A DNA stretch of 64,000 nt from Bacteroidales bacterium Bact_11 (GTDB taxonomy: Bacteria; Bacteroidota; Bacteroidia; Bacteroidales; UBA932), in contig LUZC01000023.1 of the NCBI GenBank assembly GCA_001603505.1, forward strand, positions 1 to 64,000. Reading direction: 5' to 3'. The notes beneath the pieces were generated by a model. It made no database searches. It was not told where the DNA came from and saw only the letters and a list, made by a program, of their open reading frames with translations. Shown one piece after another: positions 44,119 through 47,112 of this stretch. The translations under genes and the position numbers were made by a program. Numbering within the stretch: position 1 is the first letter of the stretch; each line of letters starts with the position of its first letter.

Positions 44119-45036
44119 TTATTTCTTATATCGAAGCCATCCTCCGTCGGGCGTCACCTCGAGGGTGGCTTCTCGGCCGAGGTAAAGGCTGTAGTTGGGG
44201 TGCTCGTGGCCGCAGTCGAAGCCGAACAGCACCGGTTTGTCGAGCGGCGCCATGTATTCGTTCACCAGGTCGAGCGCCTTGCGCTGCCACTGGTCTTCGC
44301 CGCTGGTGTCGGTGAACTGTCCGACGATGACGGCCTTGGCACGGTCGAACGTACCGCCCTGCTGCAACGTGAGCAGCATCCGGTCGAGGTTGTACATCCG
44401 TTCGTCCACGTCTTCGATGAAAAGGATGCTGTTTTCGCGCAGGCGGTTCTGCCACGGCGTGCCGAGGCAGGACACGATCAGGCTCAGATTGCCGCCCACC
44501 AGCCGGCCGGTCACTTTTCCCATGTGGTTGAAGGGATGGGAGGCGGTGCGGTAGCCCTTGATCTCGCCGAAAAGCGCTTTGCGCAGCGATTCCTCGCTCA
44601 CTTTCGAATCGTCGCCCAAGGTGCTGGGCATCGCGCCCAGGATCGATTCGATGCCCATGCTCTGCAGCACGGCGTGGAAAACCGTGATGTCGCTGAATCC
44701 CACCAGCCACTTCGGATGTTCCGCGAAGAGGTTCAGGTCGAGCGCCCGGACGGTGCGCATCGAACCGTAGCCGCCCCGGAACGAGATGAGGGCCTTGACT
44801 TCGGGATCGAGCAGCGCTTCGGTGATATCGGCGGCCCGGTCTTCGTCGGCGCCGGCGAATTCCCCCGGTGCGCTGTCGTAAAGGTGCTTGCCGGGTTTTA
44901 CGCGGAGTCCCCACGATTCGAGCATCTCTTTCCAATACATCGTCTGACGGCTCTGCTCGCTGAGCGAGGAGGCCATCGCCATGACCGCGACGGTGTCGCC
45001 GGGCTTCAGATAGGCGGGTCGGAAATAGGGTTTCAT
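44119..45036 (-). CDS. LD-carboxypeptidase (S66 family)
   Basis: The protein has 305 residues. The nucleophile region SFRGGYGSMR and the catalytic Glu (LFIEDVDE) and His (CGHEHPNY) of S66 peptidases are visible. It cleaves the L-D bond between residues 3 and 4 of murein tetrapeptides during peptidoglycan recycling. There is no signal peptide, so it is cytoplasmic, as expected. The ATG at 45036 lies 18 bases from a TATCTTTG box and opens the five-gene operon. Confidence 0.93.
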   Translation of the reverse strand: MKPYFRPAYLKPGDTVAVMAMASSLSEQSRQTMYWKEMLESWGLRVKPGKHLYDSAPGEFAGADEDRAADITEALLDPEVKALISFRGGYGSMRTVRALDLNLFAEHPKWLVGFSDITVFHAVLQSMGIESILGAMPSTLGDDSKVSEESLRKALFGEIKGYRTASHPFNHMGKVTGRLVGGNLSLIVSCLGTPWQNRLRENSILFIEDVDERMYNLDRMLLTLQQGGTFDRAKAVIVGQFTDTSGEDQWQRKALDLVNEYMAPLDKPVLFGFDCGHEHPNYSLYLGREATLEVTPDGGWLRYKK

Positions 45037-45054
45037 GTTTTTCGCTTTATCATC

Positions 45055-45062
45055 CAAAGATA
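45055..45062 (-). promoter_or_regulatory. -7 box of the LD-carboxypeptidase-patB operon
   Basis: The minus strand reads TATCTTTG, 18 bases before the ATG at 45036. Confidence 0.65.
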
Positions 45063-45075
45063 GTAAAAAATCACA

Positions 45076-45083
45076 TATCTTTG
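45076..45083 (+). promoter_or_regulatory. -7 box of the ATP-grasp-nuclease-bcp operon
   Basis: TATCTTTG with only 4 bases to the ATG at 45088. The transcript should be leaderless. Confidence 0.65.
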
Positions 45084-45087
45084 TAAT

Positions 45088-45792
45088 ATGGACAAGCACA
45101 TCGTGATCGTAGAAATCCTTTCCACAGGATTCAATTATGTGGAAGACGCCCTCGCCCGCGGCTATACGCCCGTGGTGGTGGAGGCCATGTATCCGGGTAC
45201 GGATGAAGACCGGGCTCAATTTGTCGAAGCGCAGCGTACTGCCCGCGAGCGCCTTCCCGAAGGTGTTCCCTGCATCCCGCCGAGCGATGACTACGCTGCG
45301 GTGCTGGAACAGGTCCGCGCTTATGCTCCCGTGGCCATCGTGGCGGGCAGTGAATTCGGGGTGGAACTCGCCACGCACCTGGCCTCCGACCTGGGCCTTC
45401 CCGGCAACCCCTGGTCCATCATCGGCAAGATGACCCGGAAGGACGAGATGCATCAGGCACTGGCCGACCATGGCGTGCGCGCCATCCGCGGCCGCATCGT
45501 CCGCAGCGAAGCCGAGGCGGAAGCTTTCTACAAAGAGCTCGGCACAACGCATACCGTCATCAAGCGCGACCGGAGTGCCGCCACGCTGGGCGTGCATCTC
45601 TGTGAAGGATTCGACGAGATGATGGCGGCCGTGCGGGAGGAACTCGCGCTGTCGGCCGAAGACGAGAATGTGGGCGACATCCTGATGCAGGAGCGCATCA
45701 TCGGCATGGAAATCCTTCTCCACGCTAAGGGATTCCGTATCGAAGCACCGCTTGCGGGAAAAGGCAGGATGATCATCGCTTCGTGCTGCTAG
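45088..45792 (+). CDS. ATP-grasp protein, apparently truncated
   Basis: The protein has 234 residues. The N-terminal pre-ATP-grasp domain and the first ATP-binding strand are recognisable (VIKRDRSAATLGVHLCEGFDE). The frame then reads to QERIIGMEILLHAK and departs from the family pattern, ending CC and stop. Related ATP-grasp ligases are about 400 residues, and the C-terminal metal-binding Glu/Asn half is missing. It is either an inactivated remnant or a shortened protein. The nuclease gene starts at the base after its stop, as if a deletion had joined them. No remnant of the missing half is visible in another frame. Confidence 0.65.
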   Translation: MDKHIVIVEILSTGFNYVEDALARGYTPVVVEAMYPGTDEDRAQFVEAQRTARERLPEGVPCIPPSDDYAAVLEQVRAYAPVAIVAGSEFGVELATHLASDLGLPGNPWSIIGKMTRKDEMHQALADHGVRAIRGRIVRSEAEAEAFYKELGTTHTVIKRDRSAATLGVHLCEGFDEMMAAVREELALSAEDENVGDILMQERIIGMEILLHAKGFRIEAPLAGKGRMIIASCC

Positions 45793-46632
45793 ATGGGTAT
45801 GAAGAAGATATACAAGGAAATCCTCGCCTCGCTGCTCGTGGTCCTTGCCGGCGTCCTGTATTGGCTGTTCGGCTACGAAAAGTCCGAACCGAACACCGAC
45901 CCCACGGAGATCGGGACGCCTGTCCCTTCCGGTCTGGACAACCTGATGGAAATCCCCGCCCTGACGGACGGAGGGCGCGTCGTACAGCACGGTGCCTACG
46001 TTTCGTCGTACAACACGGAGACACTGATTCCCAACTGGGTAGCGTATGAACTGACCGCAGGGGAAACGGAAGGCGACAGGAAGCGTGATGGAATCGAGTT
46101 CCGCAAGGATCCCGACCTGAAAGGCGTCCCGCAGGCGATGCGGGAGGATTACTCCGGTTCGGGCTGGACGAAAGGGCACCTGATGCCCGCCGCCGACGCC
46201 GCTTTCGATGCCTCCGCCATGAGCCAGACGTTTTACTTTACCAACGTTTGCCCGCAGGACGAAACGCTCAACGCGGGCGACTGGCAATACCTGGAAAAGA
46301 AAGTCCGTCAGTGGGCCAACCGCTATGGCAGCGTCTGGGTGGTTACCGGGCCCATCGTGGGCGACAACCGCTACGGCACCATCGGCGACCGCCAGGTCGT
46401 GGTTCCCGACGCCTTCTTCAAGGCACTACTCATCCGCAAGAAAAACGGTTCATACAGCGCCATCGCCTTTGTGATGGACAACGACGACGACCGCTACTAC
46501 TTGAAAGACTGCTCGATGAGCGTTAATGAACTGGAGGCCCTTACGGGCTTCGACCTTTTCCCCGCCCTCGACGACAAGGTGGAGGAAAAGGTGGAAAGCA
46601 CGCTCCGTCTCTCCGACTGGGGCATTAAATAG
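45793..46632 (+). CDS. DNA/RNA non-specific endonuclease
   Basis: The protein has 279 residues. A membrane anchor or signal lies at about 10-26. The beta-beta-alpha metal nuclease core has SGWTKGHLMPAAD, where the family usually has DRGH, with the general-base histidine kept. The following TNVCPQDETLNAGDW contains the metal-ligand Asn. It would degrade extracellular or periplasmic nucleic acid. The start could also be the ATG two codons later. It abuts the truncated ATP-grasp gene. Confidence 0.9.
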   Translation: MGMKKIYKEILASLLVVLAGVLYWLFGYEKSEPNTDPTEIGTPVPSGLDNLMEIPALTDGGRVVQHGAYVSSYNTETLIPNWVAYELTAGETEGDRKRDGIEFRKDPDLKGVPQAMREDYSGSGWTKGHLMPAADAAFDASAMSQTFYFTNVCPQDETLNAGDWQYLEKKVRQWANRYGSVWVVTGPIVGDNRYGTIGDRQVVVPDAFFKALLIRKKNGSYSAIAFVMDNDDDRYYLKDCSMSVNELEALTGFDLFPALDDKVEEKVESTLRLSDWGIK

Positions 46633-46656: not shown

Positions 46657-47112
46657 ATGCTCAAAATTGGTGATAAGATGCCGCTGTTCGAGGTCGTGGA
46701 CCAGGACGGCGTCACCGTGAAATCGGATGAATTCATCGGAAAAGGCCGCAAGACCATCATTTACTTCTATCCCAAGGACAATACTTCCGGCTGTACGGCC
46801 GAAGCCTGCTCGTTTCGCGATAATTACGCTGAGTTGACGGCTGCGGGCTACAACGTGGTGGGCGTGAGCAAGGACAGCGCCAAGTCCCATACGGGCTTCC
46901 GGGCCAAGTTCGAACTTCCGTTCCGGCTTTTGTCCGATACGACGACGAAGATGCTGCAGGATTTCGGTGCCTGGGGCGAGAAGACGATGTACGGCAAGAA
47001 AACGATGGGCACGCTCCGCCGCACGTTCATCTTCGACGAGAACGGCATCCTGGAGCGCATCATCGAGAAAGTGGATACGCAGAACGCCGCCGGGCAGATT
47101 TTGGAGGGGTAG
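46657..47112 (+). CDS. bcp: Thioredoxin-dependent peroxiredoxin (Bcp)
   Basis: The protein has 151 residues. The peroxidatic Cys46 and resolving Cys51 lie in PKDNTSGCTAEACSFRDNY, the classic Bcp/PrxQ spacing. It reduces hydrogen peroxide and organic hydroperoxides. It is in the middle of the 45088-47915 run, 24 bases after the nuclease gene. Confidence 0.95.
   Translation: MLKIGDKMPLFEVVDQDGVTVKSDEFIGKGRKTIIYFYPKDNTSGCTAEACSFRDNYAELTAAGYNVVGVSKDSAKSHTGFRAKFELPFRLLSDTTTKMLQDFGAWGEKTMYGKKTMGTLRRTFIFDENGILERIIEKVDTQNAAGQILEG

Follow-up and report, generated by a model that had tools for sequence, protein, structure and literature searches.

A clean internal deletion in an accessory ATP-grasp ligase gene next to a nuclease gene of a rumen-type Bacteroidales genome

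The 64,000-nucleotide stretch of Bacteroidales bacterium Bact_11 analysed here (contig LUZC01000023.1; the window) contains an ATP-grasp reading frame of only 234 codons whose stop abuts a nuclease gene. The question raised by this locus is whether the short frame is a gene cut off at its junction with the nuclease, as had been proposed in a reading of the sequence alone, a functional small protein, or the remnant of something longer. The features concerned are as follows.

44119..45036, minus strand: LD-carboxypeptidase (peptidase S66) gene, the divergent upstream neighbour, assigned with Pfam and conserved at the locus
45076..45083, plus strand: TATCTTTG, a -7-like element of the Bacteroidota type immediately preceding the ATP-grasp ATG; a pattern match, not significant alone
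45088-45792, plus strand: retained ATP-grasp ORF, 234 amino acids, stop TAG at 45790-45792
45088..45706, plus strand: retained 5' part, residues 1-206, comprising the N-terminal domain and the first ATP-grasp lobe (A subdomain)
45702..45711, plus strand: deletion junction CGGCATGGAA, located by comparing junction sequences with intact relatives
45707..45792, plus strand: retained 3' end, the last 27-28 residues and the stop, 96% identical to residues 532-558 of the G008 protein
45799..46632, plus strand: intact DNA/RNA non-specific endonuclease gene (Pfam Endonuclease_NS, E=2e-53), with its first in-frame ATG at 45793

Forty genomes of the genus were searched for relatives of the window protein. 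Close relatives were present in two others, G008 and G033, at 82% identity over residues 1-212 and each within a 576-codon open frame; the full-length proteins (loci L010 and L008, respectively) are 560-561 amino acids long. In both genomes the gene order is S66, ATP-grasp, nuclease, as in the window, with a HerA-like ATPase and the S66 peptidase flanking one side and the same nuclease the other; an SDR gene and an enolase gene lie beyond the nuclease in G033. Both genomes thus supply what a pseudogene call looks for, an intact orthologue at the same locus in a close relative, and the intact gene that the sequence-only reading had proposed to seek by alignment and locus comparison was found in them. 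The weak matches seen in G009 and G029, at 23-29% identity, belong to other ATP-grasp proteins, and 35 of the 40 genomes contained no match whatsoever to the window protein. After the window nuclease there is a peroxiredoxin (AhpC/TSA) gene at 46657-47112, for which neither L008 nor L010 gave a match; in L008 the corresponding position is occupied by a short unrelated ORF.

When the full-length G008 protein was compared with the window's assembly, only two matches were obtained, and these are adjacent: residues 1-208 at 45088-45711 and residues 532-558 at 45703-45783. Residues 1-206 of the window protein are 84% identical to residues 1-208 of its G008 counterpart, and the final 27-28 residues (MEILLHAKGFRIEAPLAGKGRMIIASCC) align as the genuine C-terminus of the full-length protein, with 89-96% identity to the relatives. 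A C-terminal truncation is ruled out by this retained end. The sequence-only reading was close in placing the loss of family sequence at about residue 210 (it occurs after residue ~206 of 234), but the gene is not truncated at the nuclease junction: the true C-terminus and stop are present, the lesion is internal, and the junction is untouched. The difference between the G008 and window genes (1683 bp less 705 bp) is 978 bp, or 326 codons, a multiple of three. As judged from these alignments, the lesion is one internal in-frame deletion, ~85 bp upstream of the stop.

At the deletion edges, the intact relatives have CGGCAAGGAA at the left site and (C)GGCATGGA(A) at the right; in wider context, their left edge ATCATCGGCAAGGAATAC and right edge GCCACCGGCATGGAAAT correspond to ATCATCGGCATGGAAATCC in the window. 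The breakpoint is ambiguous within a shared 5-bp CGGCA (about 45702-45706), and over the 10 bases around the junction the two edges match at nine of ten, with one mismatch. A repeat scan of the region revealed equally good chance pairs, the 10-bp imperfect repeat being no better than these, and found no long repeat, ruling out recombination driven by one. Because the junction repeat is within chance, it does no more than agree with slippage or illegitimate recombination. A single event of either kind would have removed the 978 bp in frame, probably between short, imperfect repeats (CGGCAAGGAA / CGGCATGGAA).

The window genome is a draft of 1.88 Mb in 105 contigs, ~81% complete, and the deletion may not be fixed in the population. 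The short gene could also be an artefact of metagenome assembly or of mixed strains, with the full-length gene present in the living population. This would be in keeping with a draft, multi-contig genome, and another metagenome-assembled genome, RUG14585, contains two family copies (L013, L017) that are both gapped near residues 328-341 and 437-455. However, the five exact shared bases are far below the overlap that the usual assemblers need for a misjoin, the join keeps the frame and is precise to the base, only one copy of the gene is present in the genome, and a search with the G008 protein located the missing segment (~residues 207-532) nowhere else in the assembly, stray contigs included. 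We regard an artefact as improbable. As to the paralogues in RUG14585, one gap is in frame and the other breaks the frame; they may reflect assembly artefacts or parallel decay.

What was lost is the second ATP-grasp lobe and most of the C-terminal extension, ~residues 207-532. The lost part includes a block, GEYMVDEKGPVLIEVNCRPMG, that shows little or no variation among ten full-length relatives and contains the predicted Mg/ATP residues E276, E288, N290, and R292, none of which is present in the window gene or elsewhere in the assembly. In ATP-grasp enzymes, this block carries the Mg ligands and the triphosphate-binding Arg. The sequence-only reading was thus right that the metal-binding half is gone. 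Of the parts that define L-amino acid ligases, the window protein has the N-terminal domain and A subdomain, with the VIKR motif (nucleotide-binding Lys) kept, and lacks the B subdomain with its two acidic Mg ligands, Asn (E..ExN), and Arg. The only significant ATP-grasp match of the 234-residue protein is to GARS_A (Pfam), at residues 118-213. Since the second lobe with its predicted Mg/ATP residues and most of the extension were lost, ligase activity of the window protein is very unlikely. Very probably, an accessory carboxylate-amine ligase of the ATP-grasp superfamily (L-amino acid ligase or PRK07206-like) was inactivated here, and the window gene is its remnant. The consequence for annotation is that the 234-residue ORF should be named neither an ATP-grasp enzyme nor a nuclease partner; beyond annotation, its importance is small.

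The nuclease ATG at 45793 does directly follow the TAG at 45790-45792, as the sequence-only reading had it, though the start conserved in nearly all relatives corresponds to the second ATG (45799), residue 3 of the window ORF; orthologues in 15 other genus genomes are 70-80% identical and start at query residue 3-5. In G033 the stop TAA of the intact ATP-grasp gene overlaps the nuclease ATG (TAATG), and in G008 the gap is short. Tight stop/start packing therefore predates the deletion, and the deletion is ruled out as the origin of the abutment, which is ancestral in G033. There is no room for a separate promoter before the window nuclease, and TATCTTTG, found identically at the corresponding place in G008 and G033, is the nearest upstream promoter-like site. 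In 13 genomes of the genus that lack the ATP-grasp gene, the short gap between S66 and the nuclease contains a separate TAnnTTTG-like element for the nuclease, mostly TAAATTTG. Because the stop and the nuclease start nearly touch and the deletion is in frame, nuclease expression was plausibly left undisturbed at both transcription and translation. The window nuclease has the motif WTKGH, and W(T/S)KGH is conserved in nearly all genus orthologues; many members of this nuclease family have DRGH at that place.

The two ideas offered by the sequence-only reading, a deletion scar in which nuclease transcription was preserved and a functional shortened binding protein, fared differently. The former, although it put the lesion in the wrong place, is supported as the better of the two by the comparative evidence, because comparison with intact same-locus orthologues reveals a single deletion of 978 bp, and the nuclease was retained along with the promoter-like element, the gene start, and the stop. 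The latter gained no positive support, although the retained part is free of stops and frameshifts. An old pseudogene would not show such an absence of decay, and this counts against our preferred explanation. Over codons 1-206, the window branch, measured from the point that it shares with G008 and G033, has accumulated a dS of 0.32 and a dN of 0.018; the resulting dN/dS is 0.06 (bootstrap 0.02-0.14), versus 0.19-0.23 on the G008 and G033 branches. Any unconstrained phase can thus have occupied only a small part of the branch, roughly a tenth or less, so the deletion would be recent or the fragment still constrained.

Constraint on the fragment would mean that the N-terminal domain and first lobe were kept by selection, e.g., in a binding or regulatory role and expressed together with the nuclease, and the intact frame, the strong conservation and low dN/dS of the retained part, and the promoter-like element and gene start in place all agree with this. 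However, the low dN/dS can have built up entirely during the full-length phase, and clamping of ATP requires the second lobe, which is missing. Structure prediction for the short form gave a partly confident N-terminal part, an overall pTM of 0.50, and a disordered tail (residues 205-234, pLDDT ~30). Nor was there a further short form in the 40 genus genomes or in 14 wider loci, so the refuting evidence named by the sequence-only reading, relatives with the same short form under purifying selection, did not turn up. A functional short protein is accordingly quite improbable, and there is but a slim chance that it is a maintained ATP-grasp N-terminal half that does without ATP clamping and is translated in tandem with a secreted or membrane-anchored nuclease. 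The event is apparently a recent gene loss.

In 16 genomes of the genus, the S66 gene has either the nuclease or the ATP-grasp gene as its neighbour; in 13 relatives it lies directly beside the nuclease and the ATP-grasp gene is absent, and the latter is therefore dispensable in the genus. Loss of a dispensable gene would be tolerated. In the nuclease and S66 tree, the three carriers are interleaved with non-carriers, and their joint grouping is rejected (AU p=0.004), ruling out a single inherited gain in one clade. Because the carriers are not a clade, the history of gain and loss is more complex; close relatives have an empty S66-nuclease gap. The sequence upstream of the gene (45037-45087; L008, L010) is common to the carriers, and most non-carriers (L025-L039) share a different promoter region. 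These observations suggest that one gene was repeatedly transferred to (gained at) or lost from the same site. In the tree of the ATP-grasp N-terminal part, the window, G008, and G033 form a group with L014, whose context differs, and the support for it is only moderate (80/91). The locus illustrates, on a modest scale, gene turnover in rumen Bacteroidales, in which an accessory ligase comes and goes between two conserved genes: the ligase gene is accessory and patchily distributed, with one clean internal deletion, and this is ordinary gene loss.

By profile and by fold, the full-length orthologues match the L-amino acid/dipeptide ligases (30vh, BL00235 3vot, BacD/YwfE 3vmm/3wnz, RizA 4wd3, DdaF, and PRK07206). 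The profile search matched 30vh over residues 64-411 (E=1.7e-35), and the NCBIfam matches were PRK07206 (E=2e-63) and DdaF (E=4e-32), both under the curated cut-offs. The full-length model is of moderate confidence (mean pLDDT 64.6), and its best PDB fold matches are L-amino acid ligases: 3vot (E=1e-13), 3vmm (E=3e-12), 3wnz, and 4wd3. DdaF is dapdiamide A synthase, which acts in dapdiamide synthesis as an amide ligase of the ATP-grasp type (PMC12568646); the literature yielded nothing specific about the present family or about a remnant of this sort in Bacteroidota. Unlike the known ligases, the full-length family, at 560 residues, has ~130 extra C-terminal residues past the ligase fold (L010:6260-6680), which gave no Pfam match at E<=0.1, and the window copy, without residues ~207-532, cannot form the active site. 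For the deletion itself, the comparison is with E. coli K12, for which one report (PMC5426353) describes RecA-independent, in-frame internal deletions between short direct repeats. The window repeat, with only five exact bases and within chance for its region, differs from the repeats described there, but in both cases one continuous segment was lost between short similar sequences and one copy was kept.
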